From an uncultured Clostridia bacterium (GTDB taxonomy: Bacteria > Bacillota > Clostridia > Christensenellales > Borkfalkiaceae): a stretch of 64,000 nt of DNA. The notes beneath the pieces were generated by a model, which was not told where the DNA came from, searched no databases, and saw only the letters and a program-made list of their open reading frames with translations. Positions 8,933-52,803 of the stretch are shown here, piece by piece. The stretch's first letter is position 1. Each line of letters starts with the position of its first letter. The stretch covers positions 62,001 to 126,000 of the forward strand of contig CAJFQM010000006.1 in assembly GCA_904419075.1 (NCBI GenBank), in the 5' to 3' direction. The position numbers and the translations under genes were made by a program.

Positions 8933-9017
8933 AATAAAAAACAACAGAACCTCGCACGCCTCTTTACAATGCGTACCACGCGAGGTCGTTTAATTTTTAG
9001 GACAAAAAATAAATTTG

Positions 9018-38882: not shown

Positions 38883-38899
38883 ATCCGACAAAAATTCAG

Positions 38900-38929
38900 A
38901 GCCTTTCCGTCTTTGCGGAAAGGCTTTTT
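38900..38929 (+). terminator. Terminator of the SIMPL gene
   Basis: A perfect 9-bp stem (38901-38909 with 38916-38924) with a six-base loop and TTTTTA. From 38940 to 39073 the DNA is AT-rich with a short inverted repeat (near 39025-39042) and no gene. Confidence 0.9.
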
Positions 38930-39073
38930 ATAAATTGAAAAAATAAATCGCAGCAATCAAAATAATAAATCGTGCTAATGGTTTTAGAGAAATAACGGGG
39001 ATAATAAAGTAAAAAAGATATTAAGTATAAGTATTTCTTATGGTATCATCAAAAAATCGTTATATTCAAATAC

Positions 39074-39102
39074 TTGTGTTTTAACGTGGCGTATAGTATA
39101 AT
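39074..39102 (+). promoter_or_regulatory. Probable promoter of the liv-citrate-proline operon
   Basis: TTGTGT (39074-39079), 17-nt spacer, TATAAT (39097-39102). The transcript would carry a leader of about 345 nt before livK. Confidence 0.65.
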
Positions 39103-39142
39103 AATAGAAATAAATTCAAAAAACAAACGGACGGAAAAGACG

Positions 39143-39271
39143 ATGAACGTTAATGTAAAGGTACTAATTAGAGTATCGGTTATAACGGTCGGGCTAGTGC
39201 GAATTATTAAAGCGAAGCCGGGCGGACAAGAGAGGGAACTCCGACTAAGGGGAGAAGGAAACGATCTGTGA
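39143..39271 (+). CDS. Branched-chain amino-acid leader peptide (attenuator)
   Basis: A 42-codon frame. Of its first 25 residues 13 are Val, Ile or Leu (seven Val, four Ile, two Leu); the remainder is basic and Gly-rich. Codons include CTA twice and ATA once, which the surrounding host genes avoid. It lies about 35 nt after the probable transcription start and ends inside a stem-loop (39257-39287), upstream of a terminator hairpin and of a branched-chain amino-acid transporter. Leader peptides rich in the regulated amino acid drive ribosome-stalling attenuation, as in ilv operons. The ribosome binding site (GGACGG) is weak. No T-box consensus was seen. Confidence 0.6.
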   Translation: MNVNVKVLIRVSVITVGLVRIIKAKPGGQERELRLRGEGNDL

Positions 39272-39287
39272 AGGGGCGGATCGTTCC
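39257..39287 (+). promoter_or_regulatory. Leader stem-loop overlapping the leader peptide stop
   Basis: AACGATC (39260-39266) pairs with GATCGTT (39279-39285), extended by GG/CC across a one-base bulge. The leader peptide stop codon (39269-39271) is in the loop, so a ribosome finishing or stalling on the peptide would change this fold. Confidence 0.5.
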
Positions 39288-39317
39288 GACTCTTCATACC
39301 GAAGCACTACCTTTTTT

Positions 39318-39366
39318 CGCCGACGGCTTTTAGCGGTATATCCGAGCCGGCGGCGCTTTTTATTTT
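39318..39366 (+). terminator. Attenuator terminator before livK
   Basis: A ten-base arm (39318-39327) pairs with 39346-39355 with a single A-G mismatch in a GC-rich stem, followed by CTTTTTATTTT. It lies in the untranslated leader, about 90 nt before livK, where it can only act as a regulated stop. Its 3' arm can alternatively pair with CCGCCGG at 39376-39382. Confidence 0.72.
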
Positions 39367-39454
39367 GAAATCCCCGCCGGAGACTACTTAAAATGGATCG
39401 CTTTTTGTCGGAGGAGGTTTTTCAAAAATAAAAAAATTTAAGGAGTAGATAGTT

Positions 39455-40645
39455 ATGAAAAAGAAATGGACGATGTTTGCATGTGCGGCAATGGCGGCGG
39501 TGATGGGCAGTGCCCTGTTTGTTTCCTGCGGAGGGAACAGAAATTATGCGGAGAATAACGAAAAATTTTATATCGGTGCTTCGGGGCCTCTGACGGGCGG
39601 AGCGGCGGTTTACGGCAAAGCGGTGCAGAACGGAGCGCAGCTCGCGGTAGAGGAGATCAACGCGGCGGGAGGACTGGACGGGAAGCAGTTTGAATTTGTA
39701 ATGATGGACGACGGCAACGACGATACTCGTGTGAACAGCAATTACGCTTCGCTGTACGAAAAGGGCATGCAGGTGAGTTTGGGCTGTGTGACGACGAAGC
39801 CGTGTTTGGCGTTCAAGCAGCTTGCGGAGGAGGATAATTTGTTCTTTTTGACGCCTTCGGCGACGGGCGACGACGTAGTCGGAGGGGGGAATGCCTATCA
39901 GATGTGTTTCTCCGACTCGGGGCAAGGTACCGCGGCGGCGGAATACGTAAAGGAGAATGTAACGGAAAGCACGATCGGAATTTTTTATAAATCGGACGAT
40001 CCGTATTCCAACGGCATCTATCAGAATTTTATCTCTGCTCTCGGAGAAAATTCGGGATTCACTTTTGTAGAGACGAACTTTACGGATGATACGAATGCGG
40101 ATTTCAGCTCTCAAATCAATCGTCTCAAAGACTGTAAATTTATCTTTATGCCCATCTATACGGAACCTGCGTCTTTGTTCATGATGCAGGCGAACGGAAT
40201 CATTTCCGACGATGCCATCTATTTCGGCTGTGACGGTTTCGATGGAATCGAAAGCGCGTTTACGACTACCCCGATTTCCGAAATTCCGCAGGAAATTTCC
40301 TATCTTTCCCATTTTGACGCCACGGCGGAGAGCGGGGCGGCAAAGGAGTTTATCGACAGCTATACGGAGAAATACGGAAAAGATACGCTCAACCAGTTCG
40401 GAGCGGCCGCTTACGACTGCGTGTACGCGATTTATGAGGCGATGGCGAACGCGGTTTCCGACGAAAAAGAAATTCCCGTAAATATTTCCCCGAGCGACTT
40501 ATGCGACATTCTCAAAGAAACATTCCAAAAGGAGGATTTCACCTTTGACGGAGTGACGGGTACGGGCATTTATTGGAGCGAGGACGGAACGGTAAATAAA
40601 AACCCTGTGAAATATATCGTAAAGGAGAAGAATTCGGCGGCATAA
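39455..40645 (+). CDS. livK: Branched-chain amino-acid ABC transporter binding lipoprotein
   Basis: A 396-residue extracellular receptor of the Leu/Ile/Val-binding family. The signal peptide ends in a lipobox at Cys25 (LFVSC), so the protein is lipid-anchored, as usual in Gram-positives. The mature part is a two-lobed type I periplasmic-binding fold (IGASGPLTGGAAVYGKA at its start). It has AAGGAG before ATG and is the first gene after the attenuator. Family members also bind amides or other amino acids; the Val/Ile/Leu-rich leader supports branched-chain substrates. Confidence 0.92.
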   Translation: MKKKWTMFACAAMAAVMGSALFVSCGGNRNYAENNEKFYIGASGPLTGGAAVYGKAVQNGAQLAVEEINAAGGLDGKQFEFVMMDDGNDDTRVNSNYASLYEKGMQVSLGCVTTKPCLAFKQLAEEDNLFFLTPSATGDDVVGGGNAYQMCFSDSGQGTAAAEYVKENVTESTIGIFYKSDDPYSNGIYQNFISALGENSGFTFVETNFTDDTNADFSSQINRLKDCKFIFMPIYTEPASLFMMQANGIISDDAIYFGCDGFDGIESAFTTTPISEIPQEISYLSHFDATAESGAAKEFIDSYTEKYGKDTLNQFGAAAYDCVYAIYEAMANAVSDEKEIPVNISPSDLCDILKETFQKEDFTFDGVTGTGIYWSEDGTVNKNPVKYIVKEKNSAA

Positions 40646-40684: not shown

Positions 40685-41560
40685 ATGCTGGATTTCATTA
40701 CTACATTTATCAACGGACTCAATCTCGGAGGAATCTACGCACTGATCGCGCTCGGTTATACGATGGTGTACGGGATAGCGAAAATGTTGAACTTTGCGCA
40801 CGGCGACATCATCATGGTGGGCGGGTATACGATCATGGTATTTTTCAGCATGACGGGTCTGCCCGTGGTGGGCGTACTGTGCGCGATTCCCCTCTGCGTA
40901 GTCGTGGGCATCGTCATTGAAAAAGTCGCATATAAACCTTTGAGAGGAGCCTCGCCCCTTGCGGTACTGATCACGGCAATCGGCGTCAGTTATCTGTTGC
41001 AGAGCTTGGCGCAGATGATTTTCGGGCCGGGGCAGCAGATGGTGGAGCTGGGCGATATGGGCACGATTTCTCTCGGCAGTTTGAAAATCAAAGTAGAGAC
41101 GATTGTCACGCTTCTCGCCGCGACTCTGATCATGGTCTGTCTGACATTGTTCGTGCATAAAACGAAGGCAGGTAAGGCCATGCTCGCGGTGGCGGAAGAT
41201 CGGGACGCGGCCCGCCTGATGGGTATCAACGTAAACGCGATTATCACGTTGACTTTTGCCATCGGTTCGGCGCTCGCGGCCGTAGCGGGGGTATTTTATA
41301 TCTTGGGGTCGCCCGCGGTGTATCCGACTTTGGGCGCTCTGCCCGGAATCAGAGCGTTTACGGCGGCGGTTATCGGGGGAATCGGTTCAATTCCGGGGGC
41401 GATGGTCGGCGGACTTCTTCTCGGAATCATCGAATGTATCTGCGGAGCGGTGCCCGCCCTGTCCCAATATACGATTGCCGTGGAGTTTGCTTTGCTCATC
41501 GTCATACTCCTCGTCAAACCGAGCGGTATTCTCGGCAAGAAAAAGCGGGAGAAGGTGTGA
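40685..41560 (+). CDS. livH: Branched-chain amino-acid ABC transporter permease LivH
   Basis: A 291-residue inner-membrane permease with about eight helices. GLNLGGIYALIALGYTMVYG and LNFAHGDIIMVGGY at the N-terminus and the EAA-like loop with DRDAARLMGINVN near residue 185 are typical of LivH. It pairs with the LivM half of the following fusion protein. It is 39 nt after livK and 1 nt before the fusion gene. Confidence 0.95.
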   Translation: MLDFITTFINGLNLGGIYALIALGYTMVYGIAKMLNFAHGDIIMVGGYTIMVFFSMTGLPVVGVLCAIPLCVVVGIVIEKVAYKPLRGASPLAVLITAIGVSYLLQSLAQMIFGPGQQMVELGDMGTISLGSLKIKVETIVTLLAATLIMVCLTLFVHKTKAGKAMLAVAEDRDAARLMGINVNAIITLTFAIGSALAAVAGVFYILGSPAVYPTLGALPGIRAFTAAVIGGIGSIPGAMVGGLLLGIIECICGAVPALSQYTIAVEFALLIVILLVKPSGILGKKKREKV

Positions 41561-41561
41561 T

Positions 41562-43571
41562 ATGGAAAACGCGGCAAAAACTTATTTCAAAAATATAAAA
41601 AAGAACTTTGAATGGAAGGGCTGTATTAATTACGTCGTGGTTGTGGCGTTTGCAATTTTCTTTTCTGTTCTGCATTCGACGGGAAATCTGGAACGTTCCA
41701 CCCGTTTTCTTCTCGAAAAAATCACATATAGCGCGGTGCTTGCCGTTTCCCTTTGTCTCGTCGTCGGTTTTTTGGGCGAGCTTTCCTTGGGGCATGCGGC
41801 GTTCATGTGTTTGGGTGCGTACATCGGCGGCTATATGGAGACGTATGTCTATGCGAGTTTTACGGACGCCGTTCCGCTCGTGTCGATCATCGTCTCGATG
41901 CTCATCGGCGGTTTGGTCGCGGCGTTTTTCGGCTTGATTATCGGCCTTCCCGCGCTGCGGCTGAAAGGAGATTATCTCGCCATCGTCACGCTCGCGTTCG
42001 GGGAAATCGTCCGTACGGTTTTCCAGAACCTGGAAATTTTCGGTGCGGAGCTCGGAATGGATACTTATACCAAGTATAAGGAAACTTTCATTCTCGGGTT
42101 CGTAGTACTTCTTATAACGATGTTTGTCGTACAGAATCTCGTGCGCAGCAAACAGGGCAGGGCGATCATGGCCATCCGCGACAATGAGATCGCCGCGCGT
42201 TCCATGGGCATCAACGTCACTTACTACAAGTTGATGGTGTTCATGCTCTCGGCGTTTTTCGCCGGGATTGCGGGGGTGCTTTTCAGCAACACCACTCGCG
42301 TCTCGTCGGGCACTTTCGGTTATAGTTATTCCATCGATATTCTCGTCATGGTCGTGCTCGGCGGCATGCGCAGCGTGAGCGGCGTAATCATATCCGCGGC
42401 GCTGATCACCTGTATAAATACCGAACTTGCCACCGTTCTTACGGGCAATCTCGCGGCACTCCAAAACGTAATTTACTCTCTCATCCTCGTCGGAATCGTG
42501 ATTTTCAATCACGCTCCCGGACTCAAAGATTTCAGAAAAAAATATAATTTCCGCACGCTTGCGACAAAAATTTTCAAAAAGAAATCTTCTGCCGCGACCG
42601 TTTCCGAACCTGTCTCCGAGACCGTCGGAACTTCTTCGGTTTCCTCCGCGGAAATTTCCGCGGAATCTTCTCTTCCGGCTTCCGCCGATTCCGTGGCAGA
42701 GTCTCCCGCCTCTTCGGTTGTATCCCGAGAATCGGTTGTTTCGGATCCTTCTGTAGCTTCCACCCGACAAGCCGATGCGGTTTCTACCGCGGAAGCAGAG
42801 GAAGAATACGTCCTCAAAACGGAAAATCTGGGCATATCTTTCGGCGGTCTCAGTGCCGTGAAGGGAATAGACCTTCAAATCAAGAAGGGAGAACTTTACG
42901 GATTGATCGGTCCTAACGGAGCGGGCAAGACGACGGTATTCAATCTTCTCACGGGAGTATATAAGCCGACGACGGGAGATTTCTATCTGAACGGAAAGAA
43001 GCTGACGGGAAAGAGTCAGATGATGATCAACCGTGCGGGGATCGCGCGGACGTTCCAAAATATCCGTATTTTCGAGGATATGAGTATTATCCGCAACGTA
43101 ATGGTAGGGCTGGAAAATCGTCCCGAGTATAAATGTTCGTTGGCGAACAGTATTTTCAGAACGCCACGGTACTATAAGACGGTAATGGCGATGCGCGAGA
43201 AAGCGAAGGAACTTCTTCGGGTATTCGGGTTGGAAGAGATCCGGAATCAGCTCGCGGGGAATCTGCCTTACGGGAAGCAGAGAAAGCTGGAAATCGCGCG
43301 AGCGTTGGCGACGTCGCCTTCTTTGCTGTTGCTCGACGAGCCCGCGGCGGGCATGAACCCCAACGAGACGCAGGAGCTCATGGATACCATCAGACTGGTG
43401 CGGGATAAATTCGATGTCACGATCCTGCTCATCGAGCACGACATGCGGCTCGTTTCGGGGATTTGCGACAGACTGACGGTGCTCAATTTCGGTACCGTGC
43501 TCGCCCAAGGAGAAGTGAAGGAAGTCCTGAACGATCCCGAAGTTGTAAGGGCATATTTGGGAGGTGAATGA
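41562..43571 (+). CDS. Fused LivM permease - LivG ATPase
   Basis: A 669-residue fusion. Residues 1-335 are LivM, with about eight membrane helices and the EAA-like DNEIAARSMGINV. Residues about 340-420 are a low-complexity Ser/Ala/Glu/Val linker. Residues 425-669 are LivG, with Walker A GPNGAGKTT at 450, the signature in LPYGKQRKLEIARAL and Walker B LLLLDEP. The two are usually separate genes. The fusion fixes one ATPase on one permease; LivF is separate. ATG 41562 has GGAGAAGG upstream. The stop lies 1 nt before livF. Confidence 0.92.
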   Translation: MENAAKTYFKNIKKNFEWKGCINYVVVVAFAIFFSVLHSTGNLERSTRFLLEKITYSAVLAVSLCLVVGFLGELSLGHAAFMCLGAYIGGYMETYVYASFTDAVPLVSIIVSMLIGGLVAAFFGLIIGLPALRLKGDYLAIVTLAFGEIVRTVFQNLEIFGAELGMDTYTKYKETFILGFVVLLITMFVVQNLVRSKQGRAIMAIRDNEIAARSMGINVTYYKLMVFMLSAFFAGIAGVLFSNTTRVSSGTFGYSYSIDILVMVVLGGMRSVSGVIISAALITCINTELATVLTGNLAALQNVIYSLILVGIVIFNHAPGLKDFRKKYNFRTLATKIFKKKSSAATVSEPVSETVGTSSVSSAEISAESSLPASADSVAESPASSVVSRESVVSDPSVASTRQADAVSTAEAEEEYVLKTENLGISFGGLSAVKGIDLQIKKGELYGLIGPNGAGKTTVFNLLTGVYKPTTGDFYLNGKKLTGKSQMMINRAGIARTFQNIRIFEDMSIIRNVMVGLENRPEYKCSLANSIFRTPRYYKTVMAMREKAKELLRVFGLEEIRNQLAGNLPYGKQRKLEIARALATSPSLLLLDEPAAGMNPNETQELMDTIRLVRDKFDVTILLIEHDMRLVSGICDRLTVLNFGTVLAQGEVKEVLNDPEVVRAYLGGE

Positions 43572-43572
43572 G

Positions 43573-44289
43573 ATGGCTTTGCTGAACGTTGAAAATCTTC
43601 AGGTATCTTACGGCCTCATCAAGGCAATCAAGGGAATTTCCTTTCATGTAGACGAAGGGGAGATCGTGGCGCTCATCGGGACGAACGGAGCGGGAAAAAC
43701 GACGGCCATGCACGCGGTCGCAAAGCTCCTGACTCCCGATAGCGGCAAAATCGAGTTTGCGGGTACGGACGTGACCAAATACCCCGCGCATAAAATCGTG
43801 CGGTTGGGCATGAGTCAAGTTCCCGAGGGACGAAGGATTTTTCAGGAACTCAAAGTCAGGGACAATCTTTTGCTTGGAGCGTTTTCGCGCAAGGATAAAG
43901 CGGAGTTTTTGGGGACTTTGGAGGAGATGTATTCGCTTTTCCCGATATTGAAGGAACGGGAGAACCAGATCGCAGGCACGCTTTCGGGCGGGGAACAGCA
44001 AATGCTGGCGGTCGCGCGGGCGATGATGTCTCATCCGAAACTTTTATTGCTGGACGAACCGAGCATGGGACTTTCGCCGCTGTATGTAGGTCAGATTTTC
44101 GGCATGATAAAGAAAATCAACGAAAGCGGCGTGACCGTCTTTCTCGTCGAGCAGAACGCAAAGCAAGCGCTGTCTTTGGCGGACAGGGCGTACGTTCTGG
44201 AAACGGGCAACGTCATTTTGGAAGGGACGGGCAAAGAATTATTGAACAATGAAAACGTCAGAAAAGCGTACTTGGGGGAGGGCGAATGA
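43573..44289 (+). CDS. livF: Branched-chain amino-acid ABC transporter ATPase LivF
   Basis: A 238-residue ATPase with Walker A GTNGAGKTT near residue 38, signature LSGGEQQMLAVARA and Walker B LLLLDEPSMGLSP, the typical LivF form. ATG 43573 lies 8 nt after GGGAGG; the GTG at 43564 is too close to it. It completes the importer with LivK, LivH and the LivM-LivG fusion. The gene ends in a perfect stem-loop. Confidence 0.93.
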   Translation: MALLNVENLQVSYGLIKAIKGISFHVDEGEIVALIGTNGAGKTTAMHAVAKLLTPDSGKIEFAGTDVTKYPAHKIVRLGMSQVPEGRRIFQELKVRDNLLLGAFSRKDKAEFLGTLEEMYSLFPILKERENQIAGTLSGGEQQMLAVARAMMSHPKLLLLDEPSMGLSPLYVGQIFGMIKKINESGVTVFLVEQNAKQALSLADRAYVLETGNVILEGTGKELLNNENVRKAYLGEGE

Positions 44290-44328: not shown

Positions 44329-45705
44329 ATGTTAAAAAGGTCGGATAAAACGAATCTTTTGGAGCAGCATTCTTACGTATACGACTTGCAGGACGTAGCC
44401 ACGCCCAATCTGTATACGGAAATTTACGATTACGCGGAGATTCCGAAGGTTCCGTTCAATCACCGTCGGGTGCCGCTCGGCATGGCGGACGAAATTTGGA
44501 TCACGGACACTTCTTTCCGCGACGGCCAGCAGTCCCGCACGCCGTATACGGTTCAGGAAATCGCGGACCTGTTCCGCCTGCTTTCGCGGCTGGGCGGAGA
44601 GAACGGCATCATCCGCCAAACCGAATTTTTCGCGTATAGCAAAAAAGATCGGGAAGCCATAGAAAAATGTCAGTCCATGGACCTGAAATTCCCCGAAATC
44701 ACCACCTGGATCCGCGCGAAGAAGGAAGATTTCGCGCTCGTCAAAAGTCTGGGGATCAAGGAGACGGGAATCCTCGTCAGCGCGTCGGATTATCATATTT
44801 TCAAAAAGCTGGGACTGACCCGCAAGCAGGCTCTCGATAAATACGTCGGCGCCGTCAAGGACTCCTTCGACGCGGGAATCATTCCCCGCTGTCACTTGGA
44901 GGACATCACCCGCGCGGATTTTTACGGCTTCGTGCTCCCGTTTGTCAACGAATTGCAGCGCGTCTCGGACGAGGCGGGAATTCCCGTCAAAATCCGCGCC
45001 TGCGATACGATGGGTTACGGCGTGCCGTTTGCGGAAGTTGCGCTTCCCCGAAGCGTGGCGGGAATTATCTACGGAATCCAGCACTATTCGGGAATTTCCT
45101 CCGACCGTCTGGAATGGCACGGCCATAACGATTTCCATAAAGCGGTAGCGAACGCGACGACCGCATGGCTGTACGGCGCGAGCGGCGTCAACTGTTCCAT
45201 GCTGGGAATCGGCGAGCGCACGGGCAACATTCCCTTGGAAGCCATGGTGCTCGAATATGCTTCTCTGCGCGGTTCTCTGGACGGAATGGATACGACGGTC
45301 ATCACGGAAATCGCGGATTATTATAGAGACGTAATCGGGTTCGATATTCCGCCGATGATGCCGTATGTCGGGAGCAGTTTCAATGTCACGCGCGCGGGCA
45401 TACACGCGGACGGGCTCATGAAGGACGAGCGGATTTATAATATCTTCGATACGAAAAAGATCCTCAATAAGAGCGCGGGCGTCATGCTGGGCCCGAACAG
45501 CGGTCTTGCGGGCGTCGCCTATTGGATAAACGGGCATTACGGCTTTAAGGGGGACGAACTCGTCATGAAAGGCGACGACGCGGTAATCGAATTAAAGAAT
45601 CGGATCGATGCAATTTACGAAGACGGGAGGGTGTCCGTCGTTTCCGAAGAAGAACTCGAAACAATGCTTTCGGAAATCGATCCCGCCCGCTTCGGGAAAA
45701 AATAA
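44329..45705 (+). CDS. Probable Re-citrate synthase (homocitrate/isopropylmalate synthase family)
   Basis: A 458-residue DRE-TIM metallolyase. DTSFRDGQQSRTPYT near residue 65 and WHGHNDFHKAVANA near 265 are the metal-binding motifs of the isopropylmalate/homocitrate synthase family. It lacks the C-terminal LeuA allosteric domain of LeuA. The family includes Re-citrate synthase, known from Clostridium kluyveri, which condenses oxaloacetate and acetyl-CoA. The direct neighbours are aconitase and isocitrate dehydrogenase, and no other citrate synthase is in the window, so citrate formation is the best fit. Homocitrate or citramalate synthase remain possible. Confidence 0.78.
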   Translation: MLKRSDKTNLLEQHSYVYDLQDVATPNLYTEIYDYAEIPKVPFNHRRVPLGMADEIWITDTSFRDGQQSRTPYTVQEIADLFRLLSRLGGENGIIRQTEFFAYSKKDREAIEKCQSMDLKFPEITTWIRAKKEDFALVKSLGIKETGILVSASDYHIFKKLGLTRKQALDKYVGAVKDSFDAGIIPRCHLEDITRADFYGFVLPFVNELQRVSDEAGIPVKIRACDTMGYGVPFAEVALPRSVAGIIYGIQHYSGISSDRLEWHGHNDFHKAVANATTAWLYGASGVNCSMLGIGERTGNIPLEAMVLEYASLRGSLDGMDTTVITEIADYYRDVIGFDIPPMMPYVGSSFNVTRAGIHADGLMKDERIYNIFDTKKILNKSAGVMLGPNSGLAGVAYWINGHYGFKGDELVMKGDDAVIELKNRIDAIYEDGRVSVVSEEELETMLSEIDPARFGKK

Positions 45706-45732
45706 TAAAATTCAGAGGTATAAAGGAAGAAT

Positions 45733-47664
45733 ATGGGACAGACAATCGCACAGAAAATCATCGCAAAACATCTCGTTTCGGGTGAAATGAAGGCGGGAAA
45801 GGAAATCGCCTTGAAAATCGACCAGACGCTCACGCAGGACGCGACGGGCACGATGGCGTATCTCGAATTTGAGAGCATGGGCGTCGAGCGCGTCCGCACG
45901 GAGCGTTCCGTGGCTTATGTAGACCATAATACGCTGCAAACGGGTTTTGAGAATCCCGACGACCACCGTTTTATTCGCACGATCGCGAAAAAACACGGCA
46001 TCTATTTTTCCCGTCCGGGAAACGGAATCTGTCATCAGGTACACCTTGAACGCTTCGGAATTCCGGGCAAGACGCTGATCGGTTCCGACAGCCATACGCC
46101 CACGGGCGGGGGGCTGGGAATGCTCGCGTTCGGTGCGGGCGGAATGGACGTCGCGGTGGCGATGGGCGGCGGAGCCTATTATATCACCATGCCGAAAATG
46201 CTGAAAGTGAATTTAAGGGGGCGCCTTCGTCCGTTTGTCACGGCGAAGGACGTCAGCCTGGAAATTCTCCGTCTGCTCTCGGTAAAGGGCGGAGTGGGCT
46301 ATATCATCGAATGGGGCGGCGAGGGGATCAAGACGCTCTCCGTTCCCGAGCGGGCGACGATTACCAATATGGGGACGGAGCTGGGCGCCACGACTTCGAT
46401 TTTCCCTTCCGATGAAGTGACGCGGGCGTTTTTGAAGGCGCAGGGGCGCGAAGGCGACTTCGTCGCTTTGGAAAGCGATCCCGACGCCGTATACGATAAG
46501 GTTATAGAAATCGACCTCGACACGCTGGAACCCATGATCGCCATGCCGCACAGTCCCGATAACGTGGTGAAGGTGAGCGAAGTGGAAGGAATGAAAGTGG
46601 ATCAGGTGTGTATCGGCTCCTGTACCAATTCTTCTTTGTACGACATGTTGAAGGCGGCGGCGATTTTCCGCGGCAGGACGGTGGCGGACAGCGTGGACGT
46701 CTCTGTTTCCCCGGGTTCGAGACAGGTGCTCGCGGAGCTCATGCGAAGCGGCGCGGCGGAGGATTTCATCTCCGCGGGCGCGCGGCTTTTGGAATGTGCC
46801 TGCGGTCCTTGTATCGGCATGGGCTTTTCTCCCAGTTCGGGCGGCGTATCCCTTCGGACGTTCAACCGTAACTTTGAAGGCAGGAGCGGCACAAAGGACG
46901 CCAAGGTGTGCCTTTGTTCTCCCGAGACGGCGGCGGCTTCGGCGCTGGCGGGGTACATTTTCGATCCTCGGAAATTAGACGTCAGCCTCGCGGTCAAAAT
47001 GCCCGAAACCTTCCATACGGACGACAGCGGAATACTTCCTCCCGCATCGGCGGAAGAGAGCAAGGACGTAGAGATCCTGCGCGGGCCGAACATCAAGCCT
47101 TTCCCCGTGAACACGCCCGTGCCCGATAAAATGACGGTAAAGGTTTCGTTAAAGACGGGCGACAATATCACGACCGACCATATCATGCCCGCGGGCGCGA
47201 AAATTCTTCCCTTCCGTTCCAATATTCCGTATATGTCGCAGTTTTGTTTCTCCGCGGTGGATAAGGAATTTCCCGAACGCGCGAAGGCGTATAAAGCGAG
47301 CGTCATCATCGGCGGCGTAAATTACGGGCAGGGTTCTTCGCGGGAGCATGCGGCGCTCGTCCCGATGTATTTGGGAATCAAAGCGGTTGCGGCGAAAAGT
47401 TTCGCGCGCATTCACGCGGCGAATTTGATCAACGCGGGGATTTTGCCCCTCGAATTTGAGGACGCTTCGGATTACGACGAAATTTCTCTTTCGGACGAAT
47501 TGGAAATGGACGACTTGTACGCCGGCCTGAAAGCGGGGCGCGTAAAAGTATTGAATAAGACGACGGGGAAGACGTTCTGTCTTAAATGTTCCCTGACGGA
47601 ACGGACCTACGGAATTTTGCGCGCGGGCGGACTTTTGAACTATACGAAGGAGGGAAACGCATGA
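45733..47664 (+). CDS. Aconitate hydratase
   Basis: A 643-residue single-chain aconitase that converts citrate to isocitrate through cis-aconitate. The 4Fe-4S ligands are in CIGSCTNSS (near residue 298) and CACGPCIGMG (near 356). The C-terminal swivel domain has GGVNYGQGSSREHAA. The length matches the short aconitase form common in Clostridia. A LeuC/LeuD-type isopropylmalate isomerase would be split in two chains, which argues against leucine synthesis. It starts 27 nt after the citrate synthase gene and overlaps the next gene in ATGA. Confidence 0.92.
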   Translation: MGQTIAQKIIAKHLVSGEMKAGKEIALKIDQTLTQDATGTMAYLEFESMGVERVRTERSVAYVDHNTLQTGFENPDDHRFIRTIAKKHGIYFSRPGNGICHQVHLERFGIPGKTLIGSDSHTPTGGGLGMLAFGAGGMDVAVAMGGGAYYITMPKMLKVNLRGRLRPFVTAKDVSLEILRLLSVKGGVGYIIEWGGEGIKTLSVPERATITNMGTELGATTSIFPSDEVTRAFLKAQGREGDFVALESDPDAVYDKVIEIDLDTLEPMIAMPHSPDNVVKVSEVEGMKVDQVCIGSCTNSSLYDMLKAAAIFRGRTVADSVDVSVSPGSRQVLAELMRSGAAEDFISAGARLLECACGPCIGMGFSPSSGGVSLRTFNRNFEGRSGTKDAKVCLCSPETAAASALAGYIFDPRKLDVSLAVKMPETFHTDDSGILPPASAEESKDVEILRGPNIKPFPVNTPVPDKMTVKVSLKTGDNITTDHIMPAGAKILPFRSNIPYMSQFCFSAVDKEFPERAKAYKASVIIGGVNYGQGSSREHAALVPMYLGIKAVAAKSFARIHAANLINAGILPLEFEDASDYDEISLSDELEMDDLYAGLKAGRVKVLNKTTGKTFCLKCSLTERTYGILRAGGLLNYTKEGNA

Positions 47665-48794
47665 GTATTCATCAATCGGAAATCGACAAGGCAACGGAAA
47701 AATTCAAGGCGCTTTTGACGGCACAGTGCGCGCGGGCGGAGCGGATGAAAAATCCCCCCGAGCGGAAGGACGGAAAGGAAAAAATCAGAATAGGGCTCAT
47801 CGACGGGGACGGAATCGGCCCGATTATCGTCAGACAAGCGAAGAAGGTACTCTCGTCGCTCTTGAAGGAGGAGACGGAATCGGGAAAGGCGGAGCTCGTC
47901 GATATCGACGGGCTGACGCTTGAAAACCGCCTCCGTTCGGGGGCTTCGGTACCCGAAGATATTCTGGAAAAAATAAAGACGTGCGACGTGCTCTTGAAGG
48001 GGCCGACGGAAACCCCCAAGGGCGGAACGATGGAAAGCGCCAATGTGACGTTGCGGCGGGAGCTCGATCTTTTTTCCAATGTCCGTCCCGTGCGGATTAA
48101 GGAAGAGGGAATCGAGTGGACGTTTTTCAGGGAGAACACGGAGGGTGAATACGTGCTCGGCAGTTCGGGGATAGAAATTCCGGGACTTCTGGCGTTCGAT
48201 TTCAAGGTAACGACGGACGAAGGCACGCGGAGAATCGCGCGTGCGGCGTTCGATTTTGCGAAGAAAAACGGCAAAACGCACGTCAGTATCGTGACGAAAG
48301 CGAATATCATGAAAAAGACGGACGGAAAATTTTCGGAGCTTTGCCGCGAAGTGGCGGCGGAATATCCCGATATTACGGTCGAAGATTATTATATCGACAT
48401 CATGTGCGCGAATCTGGTGAATAAAGACATTCGGAGCAAATTTCAGGTATTCGTCCTGCCCAATCTGTACGGCGACATCATCACGGACGAAGCGGCGCAG
48501 CTCCAAGGCGGGGTAGGTACGGCGGGCAGCGCGAATATCGGCTCCGAATACGCCATGTTCGAGGCGGTACACGGCAGCGCGCCCCGCCTGATCGCGGAGG
48601 GGCTGGGGGAATACGCTTCTCCCGAGAGCATTCTCCGCGCGGCGGCGATGCTGCTTTCGCATATCGGGTATGCGGAAAAGAGCGAGCGCCTGAACAGAAC
48701 GCTGGACGAAACTTCCTCCCGTCTCGTGTGTAACGGCACGAAAGAGGGGGTAACGGCGGAGGAATACGGAAACGCGGTTTTAGCGGCGCTTTGA
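47661..48794 (+). CDS. Isocitrate dehydrogenase, NAD(P)-dependent
   Basis: A 377-residue member of the isocitrate/isopropylmalate dehydrogenase family. It oxidatively decarboxylates isocitrate to 2-oxoglutarate. The substrate loop reads ESANVTLRR, the Ser-x-Asn form seen in isocitrate dehydrogenases rather than the hydrophobic isopropylmalate form. Metal-binding Asp residues lie in YGDIITDEAAQ. The coenzyme cannot be settled from the sequence by eye. ATG 47661 overlaps the aconitase stop; the longer open frame is inside the aconitase gene. Confidence 0.88.
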   Translation: MSIHQSEIDKATEKFKALLTAQCARAERMKNPPERKDGKEKIRIGLIDGDGIGPIIVRQAKKVLSSLLKEETESGKAELVDIDGLTLENRLRSGASVPEDILEKIKTCDVLLKGPTETPKGGTMESANVTLRRELDLFSNVRPVRIKEEGIEWTFFRENTEGEYVLGSSGIEIPGLLAFDFKVTTDEGTRRIARAAFDFAKKNGKTHVSIVTKANIMKKTDGKFSELCREVAAEYPDITVEDYYIDIMCANLVNKDIRSKFQVFVLPNLYGDIITDEAAQLQGGVGTAGSANIGSEYAMFEAVHGSAPRLIAEGLGEYASPESILRAAAMLLSHIGYAEKSERLNRTLDETSSRLVCNGTKEGVTAEEYGNAVLAAL

Positions 48795-48804
48795 GGGGGA
48801 AAGC

Positions 48805-49581
48805 ATGAGAATAGTCGTAAAGATAGGGACGTCGACGCTCGCGCACGCGACGGGGAAGATCAATCTCCGCCGCGTGGAGGAGCTCTGCCGCACCATGAGC
48901 GATTTGAAGAATGCGGGTCACGAAATCATCTTGGTTTCGTCGGGCGCCATCGGTATGGGAGCGGGAAAGCTCGGACTCCGCTCCCGTCCTTCGGATATGC
49001 CCTCCAAACAGGCGGCGGCCGCAGTCGGCCAATGCGAATTGATGTATGTTTACGATAAGCTGTTCGGGGAGTACGGCCATACGGTGGCGCAGATTCTTTT
49101 GACGGGGGAGGATATCGAAGACGATACCCGCCGCACGAATTTCCGCAACACGCTCTTTCGGCTTTTGGAATTCGGCGCGCTTCCCGTCGTCAACGAAAAC
49201 GATACGGTGGCGACGAAAGAAATCGTCATCGGGGATAACGATACGTTATCCGCCGTCGTCGCCGTAAACGCGGAGGCCGACTTATTGATTCTGCTGTCGG
49301 ACGTAGACGGACTGTATACGGGCGATCCCCGCACGCACGAAGACGCGGAATTTCTTTCGGAGGTCAAGGCGCTCACTCCCGAAATCTTGTCTCTCGGCGA
49401 AGGGGAAGGCTCGGCGCTCGGCACGGGCGGCATGCGCACCAAACTTCACGCGGCGGAAACAGCGACGTCTGCGGGAATCGATATGGTCATCGCCAACGGT
49501 TCCCGTCCCTCCGTGCTTTACGATATTGTGGAAGGGCGCCCCTGCGGCACAAAATTTTCGGGGAGGCGGAAAGAGATATGA
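48805..49581 (+). CDS. proB: Glutamate 5-kinase
   Basis: A 258-residue amino-acid kinase that phosphorylates glutamate at C5, the first step of proline synthesis. VVKIGTSTLAH at the N-terminus and SSGAIGMGAGKLG are typical. It lacks the C-terminal PUA domain found in longer ProB forms, as in many Bacillota. It starts 10 nt after the dehydrogenase gene and overlaps proA by 4 nt. Glutamate would come from the 2-oxoglutarate made by the preceding genes. Confidence 0.95.
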   Translation: MRIVVKIGTSTLAHATGKINLRRVEELCRTMSDLKNAGHEIILVSSGAIGMGAGKLGLRSRPSDMPSKQAAAAVGQCELMYVYDKLFGEYGHTVAQILLTGEDIEDDTRRTNFRNTLFRLLEFGALPVVNENDTVATKEIVIGDNDTLSAVVAVNAEADLLILLSDVDGLYTGDPRTHEDAEFLSEVKALTPEILSLGEGEGSALGTGGMRTKLHAAETATSAGIDMVIANGSRPSVLYDIVEGRPCGTKFSGRRKEI

Positions 49582-50831
49582 AAACGATGGAAGAGATCTT
49601 GCGGGAAGCGAAATCTGCAAAAGCGGTTGCGGCGACGCTCTCCTCCGAGCGAAAGAACCAAGCATTGTCCGCCATGGCGGATGCGCTGATTTCCGATACC
49701 CCCCGCATACTTGCGGCAAATCAAGCGGACGTTTCCGCTTCCCGCCTTTCGCCGTCCATGACCGACCGATTGACGCTGACGGAGAAAAGGATAGCCGAGA
49801 TGTCGGAGGGAATCCGAGCGGTAGCAAAACTCCCCGACCCCGTGGGGAGAGTGCTGGAAAAAATCCTTTGCCCGAACGGTCTGAAAATCGAAAAGGTCTC
49901 CGTCCCCATGGGAGTGGTAGCCGTTATCTATGAAAGCCGTCCGAACGTCACTTCGGACGCGGCGGCGCTCTGTCTGAAAAGCGGCAACGCCTGCGTGCTG
50001 CGCGGGGGAAAGGAAGCCTTTTCCACGTCCTTTGAAATCGTAAAATCTCTCCGCCGCGCCCTGTCGTCGGCGGGGCTTCCCGCAGCGCTCGTCTCCATGT
50101 CGGAGGATACGAGTCGGGAAGGGGCAGGCGCGCTCATGCGAGCGCGCGGTTTTGTAGATCTTCTCATTCCCCGCGGCGGAGCGGGGCTGATTCGCTCCTG
50201 CGTGGAAAATGCCACGGTACCCTGTATTCAGACGGGGACGGGCATCTGTCATATTTACGTCGATAAGAGTGCGGATTTTCAGATGGCGCTCGATATTATA
50301 GACAATGCCAAAACTTCCCGTCCCTCCGTCTGTAACGCGGCAGAAGTCTGCCTCGTTCATAAAAATATCGCCCCGACCTTTTTGCCGCTCTTAAAGGAAC
50401 GCCTGACGGACGAACGCGGGAAAAGAGGTCAGACGCCCGTCGAACTTCGCCTGGACGAACGGGCGGCGAAATATATTTCGGGAACGCGGGCGGGAGCGGA
50501 GGATTTCGATACGGAATTTCTCGACTACATTCTCGCGGTGGGGGTGACGGACGACGTTTATTCGGCGGCGGAACATATTTCGGCGCACTCCACGGGGCAC
50601 AGCGAAGCGATCGTCGCTTCTGACGAAGAAGCGCAAAGCGCCTTTTTGTCTCTCGTAGACAGCGCGGCGGTCTATGTGAACGCTTCCACGAGATTTACGG
50701 ACGGCGGAGAATTCGGATTGGGCTGCGAAATGGGCATTTCCACGCAAAAGCTCCACGCCCGCGGTCCGATGGGCTTAAACGAGCTCACTTCCTGGAAATA
50801 TGAAATCAGAGGAAACGGCCAGATCAGATAA
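49578..50831 (+). CDS. proA: Gamma-glutamyl phosphate reductase
   Basis: A 417-residue aldehyde-dehydrogenase-fold enzyme that reduces glutamyl-5-phosphate to glutamate semialdehyde. VIYESRPNVTSDAAALC near residue 115 and the catalytic Cys in SVCNAAEVCLVH near 255 are typical. Length is normal. It overlaps proB in ATGA. The following 135 nt (50832-50966) hold a short GC-rich palindrome near 50915-50930 but no T-run, so read-through into proC is likely. Confidence 0.96.
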   Translation: MKTMEEILREAKSAKAVAATLSSERKNQALSAMADALISDTPRILAANQADVSASRLSPSMTDRLTLTEKRIAEMSEGIRAVAKLPDPVGRVLEKILCPNGLKIEKVSVPMGVVAVIYESRPNVTSDAAALCLKSGNACVLRGGKEAFSTSFEIVKSLRRALSSAGLPAALVSMSEDTSREGAGALMRARGFVDLLIPRGGAGLIRSCVENATVPCIQTGTGICHIYVDKSADFQMALDIIDNAKTSRPSVCNAAEVCLVHKNIAPTFLPLLKERLTDERGKRGQTPVELRLDERAAKYISGTRAGAEDFDTEFLDYILAVGVTDDVYSAAEHISAHSTGHSEAIVASDEEAQSAFLSLVDSAAVYVNASTRFTDGGEFGLGCEMGISTQKLHARGPMGLNELTSWKYEIRGNGQIR

Positions 50832-50966
50832 AGACGGCGTCGAGTAAAAATCGGTCGGCAATATGCGGACAATGCGTCCCTGTATTTTTGAAAAAGGGCA
50901 TAAACGATTCTTGCGGTACGGCGGTGCCGCCGCTTTCGATAGAATTTTATGGAGGAACTTATCGCA

Positions 50967-51776
50967 ATGAACACTTACGGTTTTATAGGCGTGGGCAATA
51001 TGGGCGGAGCACTGGCTCGGGCGGTCTGTCGGAAATTTCCGCGGGAAACGCTCCTTTCGGGGCGTACTTCCGCCCGCGCGGAAAGCCTCGCGAAAGAGCT
51101 CGGCTGCCGCGCGTCGGACGCTCATACGGTCGCGGAGAGCTGCCGCTATATTTTTCTCGGCGTAAAGCCCCAGACCATGCCCGAACTTCTTTCCGACCTC
51201 TCCCCCGTCTTTGCGGCGCGCATAAAACGGGGAGAACGCTTTGTTCTCGTTTCCATGGCGGCGGGATTGACAATGAATACGATTTCCGCGCTTTCGGGCG
51301 GAGTCCCCGTAATCCGGATCATGCCCAACACTCCCGTGGCGGTAGGGGCGGGAATGACGCTCGCGTGCGCCGATCCCTCGGTGACGGAAGAAGAATTTTC
51401 GGAGCTCCTTTCAGCGCTGGAATATGCGGGCCGTACGGACAGAATCGACGAAAGGGACATGGACGCGGCGAGCGTCGTCGCCGGATGTTCTCCCGCCTAT
51501 ATGTTCCGGTTTGTCAAGGCGCTCGCGGACGCGGGCACGGCGCTCGGTCTGAGCGCGGAAAAGGCTTTGACATACGCCGAGCAATCGATGTTCGGCTCGG
51601 CGAAATTGGCGCTGGAAACGGGAACGCCGCCCGACGAGCTCGAAACCGCGGTATGCAGTCCGGGCGGCTCGACGATAGAGGGCATAAAGAGCTTTGAACG
51701 GGCGGAGCTGGACAGAATCGTAAAGGAGGCGGCGTCCGCCTCGTATAAGCGGACGAAGGAGCTGGCGGGAAAATAA
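50967..51776 (+). CDS. proC: Pyrroline-5-carboxylate reductase
   Basis: A 269-residue enzyme for the last step of proline synthesis. NAD(P)-binding GFIGVGNMGGALA is at residues 5-17, and the dimerisation domain carries a typical SPGGSTIEGI near residue 232. ATG 50967 lies 8 nt after GGAGGAAC; the ATG at 50949 overlaps that ribosome binding site and is not used. Confidence 0.95.
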   Translation: MNTYGFIGVGNMGGALARAVCRKFPRETLLSGRTSARAESLAKELGCRASDAHTVAESCRYIFLGVKPQTMPELLSDLSPVFAARIKRGERFVLVSMAAGLTMNTISALSGGVPVIRIMPNTPVAVGAGMTLACADPSVTEEEFSELLSALEYAGRTDRIDERDMDAASVVAGCSPAYMFRFVKALADAGTALGLSAEKALTYAEQSMFGSAKLALETGTPPDELETAVCSPGGSTIEGIKSFERAELDRIVKEAASASYKRTKELAGK

Positions 51777-51792
51777 AAATCGGGAGGCGGAT

Positions 51793-52803
51793 ATGGCGAA
51801 AGGGCTGACGGTCGTAAAAAATTATGTTTCGGTTTTGGGCTTGCGCGAAACGGAGCGCGCCATCAAGGACGTAAAGGACATTTTCGAGCGCACGCTGTCG
51901 GAAAAGCTCAATCTGGAAAGGATAACGGCGCCGCTGTTCGTGGAGAAATCGAGCGGCATCAACGACGATCTGAACGGTACGGAACGCAAGGTGGAATTTT
52001 CTCTGAAAGCGAGCGGAACGGACTGTGAAATCGTGCAATCGTTGGCGAAATGGAAGCGTCTGGCGCTGTATCGGTACGGTTTTTCCGCGGGCGAGGGATT
52101 GTATACGGACATGAACGCCATTCGCCGCGACGACGAAATGGACAATATCCATTCGGTATTCGTGGACCAGTGGGATTGGGAGCGGGTAATTACGGAAGGG
52201 GAAAGGAACGTCGAGTTTCTCAAAGAGACGGCGAAAAAGGTAGCCGAAGCGGTCTTTGAGACGCACCGCCGAATTAAGCGGCTCTATCCCGTCCTTACGC
52301 GGCGGCTGGACGAGGAAGTGTACTTTATCACTTCGGGGGAATTGGAGGAAAGGTATCCCGATTTAACCCCGAAGGAAAGGGAAAGGGCGATTTTGCGGGA
52401 ACATCATACGACGTTCCTGATGCAAATCGGGGAGAAGCTGAAAAACGGACTTCCTCACGACGGACGATCTCCCGATTATGACGATTGGACGCTGAACGGG
52501 GATCTTCTCTTTTGGAACGAGCTTTTGGAATCGCCCTTGGAGCTTTCCTCCATGGGAATCCGCGTCGACGCGGCGGCGCTCAAACGCCAGTTGCGGCTTT
52601 CGGGTACGGAAGAAAGAATGAAATATCCCTATCACCAAATGGTTTCAAAAGGACAATTGCCTTTGACGATAGGCGGAGGAATAGGGCAGTCGAGGATGTG
52701 CCTTCTCCTGCTGGAAAAATTGCATATCGGAGAGGTGCAGGCATCCGTATGGGGCGAGGACGTGACGGAAGAATGTGAAAAATTCGGTATCGGAATTTTG
52801 TAA
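51793..52803 (+). CDS. asnA: Aspartate-ammonia ligase (asparagine synthetase A)
   Basis: A 336-residue class II aminoacyl-tRNA-synthetase-like enzyme that makes asparagine from aspartate, ammonia and ATP. KSSGINDDLNGTERKVEF near residue 55, YTDMNAIRRDD near 102 and the final GGGIGQSRMCLLLL match AsnA. It is 16 nt after proC and is the last gene before a terminator, closing the amino-acid operon. Confidence 0.96.
   Translation: MAKGLTVVKNYVSVLGLRETERAIKDVKDIFERTLSEKLNLERITAPLFVEKSSGINDDLNGTERKVEFSLKASGTDCEIVQSLAKWKRLALYRYGFSAGEGLYTDMNAIRRDDEMDNIHSVFVDQWDWERVITEGERNVEFLKETAKKVAEAVFETHRRIKRLYPVLTRRLDEEVYFITSGELEERYPDLTPKERERAILREHHTTFLMQIGEKLKNGLPHDGRSPDYDDWTLNGDLLFWNELLESPLELSSMGIRVDAAALKRQLRLSGTEERMKYPYHQMVSKGQLPLTIGGGIGQSRMCLLLLEKLHIGEVQASVWGEDVTEECEKFGIGIL

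Follow-up and report, generated by a model that had tools for sequence, protein, structure and literature searches.

A candidate leader-peptide attenuator upstream of a branched-chain amino acid uptake operon in an uncultured Clostridia bacterium

The window analyzed here, a stretch of 64,000 nt, carries on its forward strand a group of genes resembling those of a branched-chain amino acid ABC transporter. The first, at 39455 to 40645, encodes a livK-like substrate-binding protein (NF011933; E value, 8e−25, below the curated cut-off), and it is followed by livH-like (40685 to 41560), fused livM-livG-like (41556 to 43571), and livF-like (43564 to 44289) genes, each named after its best NCBIfam match, below the curated cut-off. 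In the fused gene, a LivM-like permease and a LivG-like ATPase share one 671-amino-acid frame with a Ser/Ala-rich linker; in the genus relative G001 these are two frames, all the liv genes there being separate, and an opposite-strand frame follows them. Co-directional genes lie behind livF in the window, with positions 44329 to 50831 (+) encoding a LeuA/homocitrate-family synthase (presumably a Re-citrate synthase), aconitase, an isocitrate dehydrogenase-like protein, ProB, and ProA, of which the aconitase, proB, and proA matches scored above curated cut-offs. With proC and asnA after proA, the block extends over 44329 to 52803 and places glutamate and proline supply behind the uptake operon. 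From their direction and close spacing, these carbon genes could share the control described below; given the opposite-strand frame after the liv genes of G001, such joint control would be particular to the window genome.

The genome that contains the window (G000) is a 2.33-Mb draft of 38 contigs, estimated to be 94% complete. No ilvD gene was found in this draft, and ilvD was found in all 14 control genomes, which suggests auxotrophy for valine and isoleucine. Dependence on Val and Ile uptake is therefore likely, and control of that uptake would be sensible.

Upstream of livK, a 42-codon open reading frame was identified at 39143 to 39271 (+), with the translation MNVNVKVLIRVSVITVGLVRIIKAKPGGQERELRLRGEGNDL. 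A preliminary description, made from the sequence alone, had proposed this frame as a leader peptide with 13 branched-chain residues in its first 25 codons, and both its extent and the count (seven Val, four Ile, and two Leu) were confirmed. When the 420 nt before livK were shuffled with dinucleotide composition preserved, an equally rich ATG frame (at least 10 V/I/L in 15 codons) arose in 2 of 2,000 shuffles. The Shine-Dalgarno sequence is weak, consisting of GGA about 9 nt before the ATG. CTA and ATA codons had been described as avoided by the neighboring genes; this holds for CTA, used for three of the five leader Leu codons against 1 of 447 Leu codons in 13 neighboring genes, but ATA accounts for 33 of the 319 Ile codons in those genes and is only mildly uncommon rather than really avoided. 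The choice of CTA and ATA is suggestive only, because untranslated DNA read in frame also shows rare codons. The promoter that had been claimed is represented by a promoter-like pair at 39074 to 39102 (+), in which TTGTGT (39074 to 39079) and TATAAT (39097 to 39102) are separated by a 17-nt spacer. The −10 hexamer agrees with the consensus at six of six positions and the −35 hexamer at three of six, for which reason the promoter scan did not list the pair.

Folding predicted a 1:2 hairpin over leader codons 15 to 28 (39186 to 39225, +), with about 8.6 expected pairs at transcript ends from 39230 to 39317, which would hold the antiterminator segment when no ribosome is present. This antiterminator strand, segment 2, was placed by the pairing model at 39210 to 39226 (+). 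Its core, AAGCCGGGCG, at 39215 to 39224 in leader codons 25 to 28, can pair with the terminator 5′ arm through 10 bp with a 2-nt bulge (computed duplex energy including flanking bases, −15.7 kcal/mol), and the longer stretch of 39210 to 39226 can pair with the terminator 3′ arm instead. In the minimum-energy fold, a long stem-loop follows at 39228 to 39317 (+), which abuts the terminator and carries the leader stop codon (39269 to 39271) at its apex, in agreement with the earlier observation of a stop codon inside a stem-loop; the inner hairpin of this structure recurs in a separate fold of 39100 to 39300. The last element is a GC-rich intrinsic terminator at 39318 to 39366 (+), with arms at 39318 to 39328 and 39345 to 39355 that form an 11-bp stem with one mismatch, followed by the U-tract CTTTTTATTTT at 39356 to 39366 (−19.3 kcal/mol). 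Its T-run ends 88 nt before livK, where about 90 nt had been estimated. The terminator scan, with a loop limit of 8, did not list it for that reason. The fold of 39100 to 39300 was more stable than all 200 of its shuffles (z, −3.8), and that of the longer region from 39100 to 39366 more stable than 198 of 200 (z, −2.5; 2 of 200 were as stable). At the level of sequence and predicted pairing, the parts of an attenuator, their order, and their alternative pairings are all present.

The effect of ribosome position was computed by masking 30 nt around each ribosomal A site and then taking the terminator probability from equilibrium folding. In this mask model, the terminator probability was 0.86 for the free RNA and 0.85 when the ribosome occupied the stop codon. 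It fell to between 0.04 and 0.13 for A sites at codons 14 to 19, where the antiterminator reached 0.71 to 0.80; values were intermediate at codons 13 and 20, and the terminator was restored from codon 21 (0.87) onward. The dip coincides with I14, V16, L18, and V19, and V13 lies at its edge. Ribosomes at codons 3 to 11 left the terminator intact (0.83 to 0.88), so that, in the model, a ribosome arrested on the earliest Val codons would fail to antiterminate, and the device would answer slowed rather than fully arrested translation. The dip recurred with five footprint sizes, its edges shifting by a codon or two, as well as at two temperatures and for five transcript-end pairs (0.05 to 0.13 at codons 14, 16, and 18). 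Once bases beyond 39355, the U-tract, were included, segment 2 preferred the terminator 3′ arm over the 5′ arm and a partial dip also appeared at codons 7 and 8; a transcript end at 39360 gave a free terminator probability of only 0.53.

As a control, leaders were shuffled and the same behavior scored (free probability of at least 0.7, with three or more of the sampled stall sites falling below 0.3), and it was found in 5 of the 200 leaders shuffled by dinucleotide and 6 of the 200 shuffled by codon order; a laxer rule, one site below 0.15, was satisfied by 13 of 200 and 11 of 200, respectively. The predicted switch alone is moderate evidence, to which the position of the dip on V/I/L codons adds. 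With respect to membership among attenuators, the locus has a short V/I/L-rich frame (13 of 25 codons, 2 of 2,000 shuffles), a terminator, seen in sequence and fold, between the leader and livK as the first gene after it, and an in silico prediction of an exclusive antiterminator set by ribosome position.

Within the genus, a livK match with an E value of 1e−60 or better was found in 4 of 57 genomes (own genome included). A leader with a terminator is present at three of these four loci, namely, the window, L033 in G001, and L034 in G002, whose livK shares 56% and 49% identity, respectively, with that of the window. The leaders of L033 (MKNYAGKNVILMLVEVVIIRGVPRFCRT) and L034 (MHNFAGKNVIITRVEVVIIQGVPRFCRT) are alike at 22 of 28 residues, and the distance from the stop codon to the terminator arm is 46, 47, and 42 nt in the window, L033, and L034. 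No leader was found upstream of livK at L127 (G818, a genome 65% complete). A search with the leader DNA across 61 genomes (own genome included) gave matches only in the own genome, the second of which, 29 nt on contig C1, was judged by eye.

The wiring predicted for L033 and L034 is unlike that of the window, in that a leader segment over codons 14 to 17 duplicates the terminator 5′ arm and can base-pair with the 3′ arm. In the mask model, the free RNA antiterminates (terminator probability of 0.00 in L033 and 0.18 in L034), and a ribosome at codons 2 to 10, or none, results in antitermination, one at about codons 11 to 22 results in termination, and later positions are mixed; at the stop codon, the terminator stands at about 0.8 in L033 and 0.4 in L034. 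A ribosome stopped on V9 or I10, where the branched-chain codons begin, would antiterminate, as would an untranslated leader, and the regulatory sign at these two loci could be either. A stem common to both at the branched-chain codons was considered and set aside, with no model built, its probability being 0.96 in the L034 model and at most 0.07 in that of L033.

T-box riboswitches sense tRNA charging before amino acid genes, mostly in Bacillota. Unlike these, the window leader has no T-box match: RF00230 was not detected in the window at gathering score, nor at E values up to 10 across 38890 to 39460, and a T-box reading of the leader was rejected. Three sub-cut-off T-box matches were present in the own genome, before thrS, before pheS-pheT, and before a gene pair that we take to be cysE/cysS-like, with alaS two genes beyond this pair; none was before branched-chain genes. 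No other Rfam family reached gathering score at the leader, and none did so at 20 relative livK loci scanned; the four matches at E values up to 10 within 38890 to 39460 were weak and implausible. Elsewhere in the window, an abiF RNA (RF03085) match lies at 8950 to 8986, above gathering score. Elsewhere in the genome, upstream of a leuA-like gene on the reverse strand of contig C7 (7062 to 8729; L091), a second, putative branched-chain-rich leader frame was noted, encoding a hydrophobic peptide of 28 amino acids, MKRGAAIVLTLAGCLLVIALGVMAFLYS, with a good Shine-Dalgarno sequence, a TTGACA/TACAAT pair, and a hairpin of 19 bp followed by a poor U-tract.

These searches bear on whether the leader could instead be an attenuator that senses a small molecule or a protein through its structure, the frame being incidental. 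The strong structure (z, −3.8), the weak Shine-Dalgarno sequence, and the lack of leader sequence conservation would all be compatible with such a sensor. We nevertheless consider it unlikely, as no Rfam family was recognized at gathering score, the weak matches were implausible, a Val/Ile/Leu-rich frame recurs in some relatives, and the predicted switch sits on V/I/L codons.

Upstream regions of livK homologues were surveyed at 29 loci from a contig set, 48 loci drawn from genus- and order-level whole genomes, and 32 class-level loci. An automatic test called for an ATG frame of 10 to 100 codons with at least a weak Shine-Dalgarno sequence and at least 7 V/I/L in 15 codons, together with a terminator-like hairpin −15 to +100 nt from the stop codon. 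Starts of livK were assigned by a heuristic, and some (e.g., L055, L060, L075, and L076) are intragenic, which shifts the region examined. Loci with less than 250 nt upstream were left out (L014 from the frame and automatic tests, L110 and L115 from the automatic test), as was L124, which has no upstream sequence, and L127 was read apart from the survey counts. The automatic test was passed by 13 of 107 regions, most regions failing, in counts that are partly non-independent (L005 and L006 have their upstream DNA in common, and L072, L074, L075, and L076 belong to one genus). By set, the passes were 3 of 28 for the contig set, 9 of 49 for the order (window included), and 1 of 30 for the class, against 0.00, 0.20, and 0.07 expected from 30 shuffles each (0.27 in total), and no reverse strand passed. 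With only 1 of 30 class regions passing, the device is not a general feature across the class. One of the 13 passes, L042, is probably false and probably represents the end of the upstream gene; L037, L047, L060, L061, L063, L072, and L074 are leaders by eye yet fail the automatic test. The frame test alone, at least 10 V/I/L in 15 codons with a good Shine-Dalgarno sequence, was passed by 10 of 77 regions against a mean of 0.04 over 50 shuffles; the window leader frame itself fails when a good Shine-Dalgarno sequence is required. In the contig set, a rich frame (at least 8 of 15) with a good Shine-Dalgarno sequence occurred in 2 of 15 livK upstream regions and in 0 of 29 upstream of other genes. 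L037 was rejected as an independent case of the switch, its dip at codons 12 to 15 (all Ile/Leu) being equaled by 53 of 200 shuffles in each mode.

The survey also speaks to another arrangement, in which a fixed terminator does no more than reduce transcription of livK and the rich frame arose by chance. That most livK regions, including one of the four in the genus, fail the test or have no leader would suit this arrangement, as would the rate of about 3% at which the switch appeared in the shuffled control. It appears improbable in view of the 2 of 2,000 shuffles with an equally rich frame, the 13 of 107 regions where 0.27 would be expected, and the matching spacing at the three genus loci.

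Longer frames were found upstream of livK at 15 hand-picked loci, here called class B (L003, L015, L025, L035, L044, L047, L055, L060, L061, L063, L072, L074 to L076, and L105). These frames have 52 to 93 codons, with an Ala-rich start and then a branched-chain-rich or hydrophobic part. Over the first 28 codons, the fractions of Ala (0.198 versus 0.106), Ser (0.138 versus 0.099), and Asn (0.067 versus 0.042) exceeded those in shuffles; Cys, striking by eye, showed no excess (0.072 versus 0.070). A terminator-like hairpin lies inside the frame in 11 of the 15 leaders (10 of 14 without L061, which was chosen for its hairpin), at codons 26 to 46 in 10 of these, against shuffle means of 0.6 (dinucleotide) and 0.5 (codon) and a maximum of 2 per set of 40. 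In L047, the best-scored hairpin is at codons 13 to 21, and a second one starts near codon 33. According to the automatic scorer, a second terminator follows the stop codon in 9 of the 15, at a distance of 8 to 21 nt in eight and 39 nt in L105, in most cases so close that a ribosome terminating translation could extend to the 5′ arm. In the mask model, this second terminator stayed at 0.8 or above wherever the ribosome was placed on the frame in 7 of the 11 class B leaders run, and a dip was seen in L015, L025, L063, and L075. The geometry of class B recalls that of E. coli pyrBI. Upstream of livK at L095, a strong terminator is immediately preceded by the end of a short frame, MFYKKCSSSYCCMNHHSQSASFGECEKIK, that is rich in Cys and Ser and lacks a branched-chain run; by eye, this frame resembles the first part of class B leaders.

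We tentatively suggest, at somewhat short of even confidence, that leader control of branched-chain uptake is found repeatedly in Clostridia and takes two forms: the short classical form of the window and its two genus relatives, and a long form with two gates (class B). In this equally tentative reading, class B would represent a previously undescribed attenuator in which transcription gets past both terminators only when a ribosome follows RNA polymerase closely. Its sign may be either way, with expression turned on by scarcity of branched-chain amino acids or by their presence. Some class B relatives have longer frames with membrane-helix-like runs, as judged by eye, and these could be taken as a sign that the window frame, too, encodes a functional small hydrophobic protein and not a leader peptide. 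For the window this is very improbable: charged residues at leader positions 6, 10, 20, and 23 interrupt the hydrophobic run, no conservation of the DNA was found, and the terminator arm starts 46 nt after the stop codon.

The window locus is best read as a ribosome-mediated transcription attenuator of branched-chain amino acid uptake, and we regard this as probable. An attenuator of the ilv type had already been put forward in the preliminary description, and it is supported by the enrichment over shuffles, the location of the computed switch on V/I/L codons, recurrence in some relatives, and the absence of a T-box. The signal would be a low level of branched-chain aminoacyl-tRNA. RNA polymerase would start near 39109, and a ribosome would then initiate on the leader frame with its many Val, Ile, and Leu codons. 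If charged tRNA is plentiful, translation would proceed to the stop codon at 39269, the 1:2 hairpin (39186 to 39225) would form in the wake of the ribosome and sequester segment 2, and the terminator at 39318 to 39366 would end the transcript upstream of livK. A shortage of charged tRNA for Val, Ile, or Leu would instead slow the ribosome on the codon run; as long as its A site stays at about codons 13 to 19, it would cover segment 1, leaving segment 2 free to capture one arm of the terminator. Transcription would then continue through livKHMGF and perhaps into the glutamate and proline genes downstream.

Attenuators of this kind are already known from ilv and leu operons, those of enterobacteria among them; what sets the present case apart is its transport target and its lineage. 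The E. coli ilvGMEDA leader is described as having 32 amino acids, 15 of them branched-chain residues (PMC6123439). The window leader resembles E. coli ilvGMEDA, ilvBN, and leuABCD in its short branched-chain-rich frame, its terminator before the first gene, and its alternative hairpins, and unlike them it would control uptake and not synthesis and has a long stem-loop between segments 2 and 3. CUA codons are shared with the Salmonella leu leader, in which a change from CUA to CUG made the response less sensitive (Carter et al., as cited in PMC1183508). The preliminary description had stated that control of this kind in Bacillota is usually by T-box; the absence of one at the leader stands, and the general remark needs qualifying, since leader-peptide attenuation has experimental support for ilv genes in Listeria monocytogenes (Rli60; leader of 13 amino acids; PMC5864092) and Staphylococcus aureus (ilvD attenuator; leader of 26 amino acids; PMC5794164). 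Both resemble the window leader in combining a branched-chain-rich leader peptide with a terminator and an antiterminator in Bacillota, theirs standing before the ilv operon; unlike the window, they serve biosynthetic operons of Bacilli, on which CodY acts as well. In a full-text literature search, evaluated at title and abstract level and with subscription journals mostly outside its scope, none of the papers among the matches listed described a branched-chain leader upstream of liv transport genes in Clostridia. Unlabelled cases of such leaders may be contained in a published survey of premature terminators (PMC2965389).

The two-terminator leaders, which had no Rfam match among the 20 loci scanned, suggest a broader, overlooked group. 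If the reading of the window locus is true, attenuation through ribosome-based sensing of branched-chain amino acids would act not only on biosynthetic operons but also, in a clostridial lineage, on an operon for ABC-type uptake, and the way in which a likely auxotroph for valine and isoleucine adjusts its import would have an explanation that can be tested.
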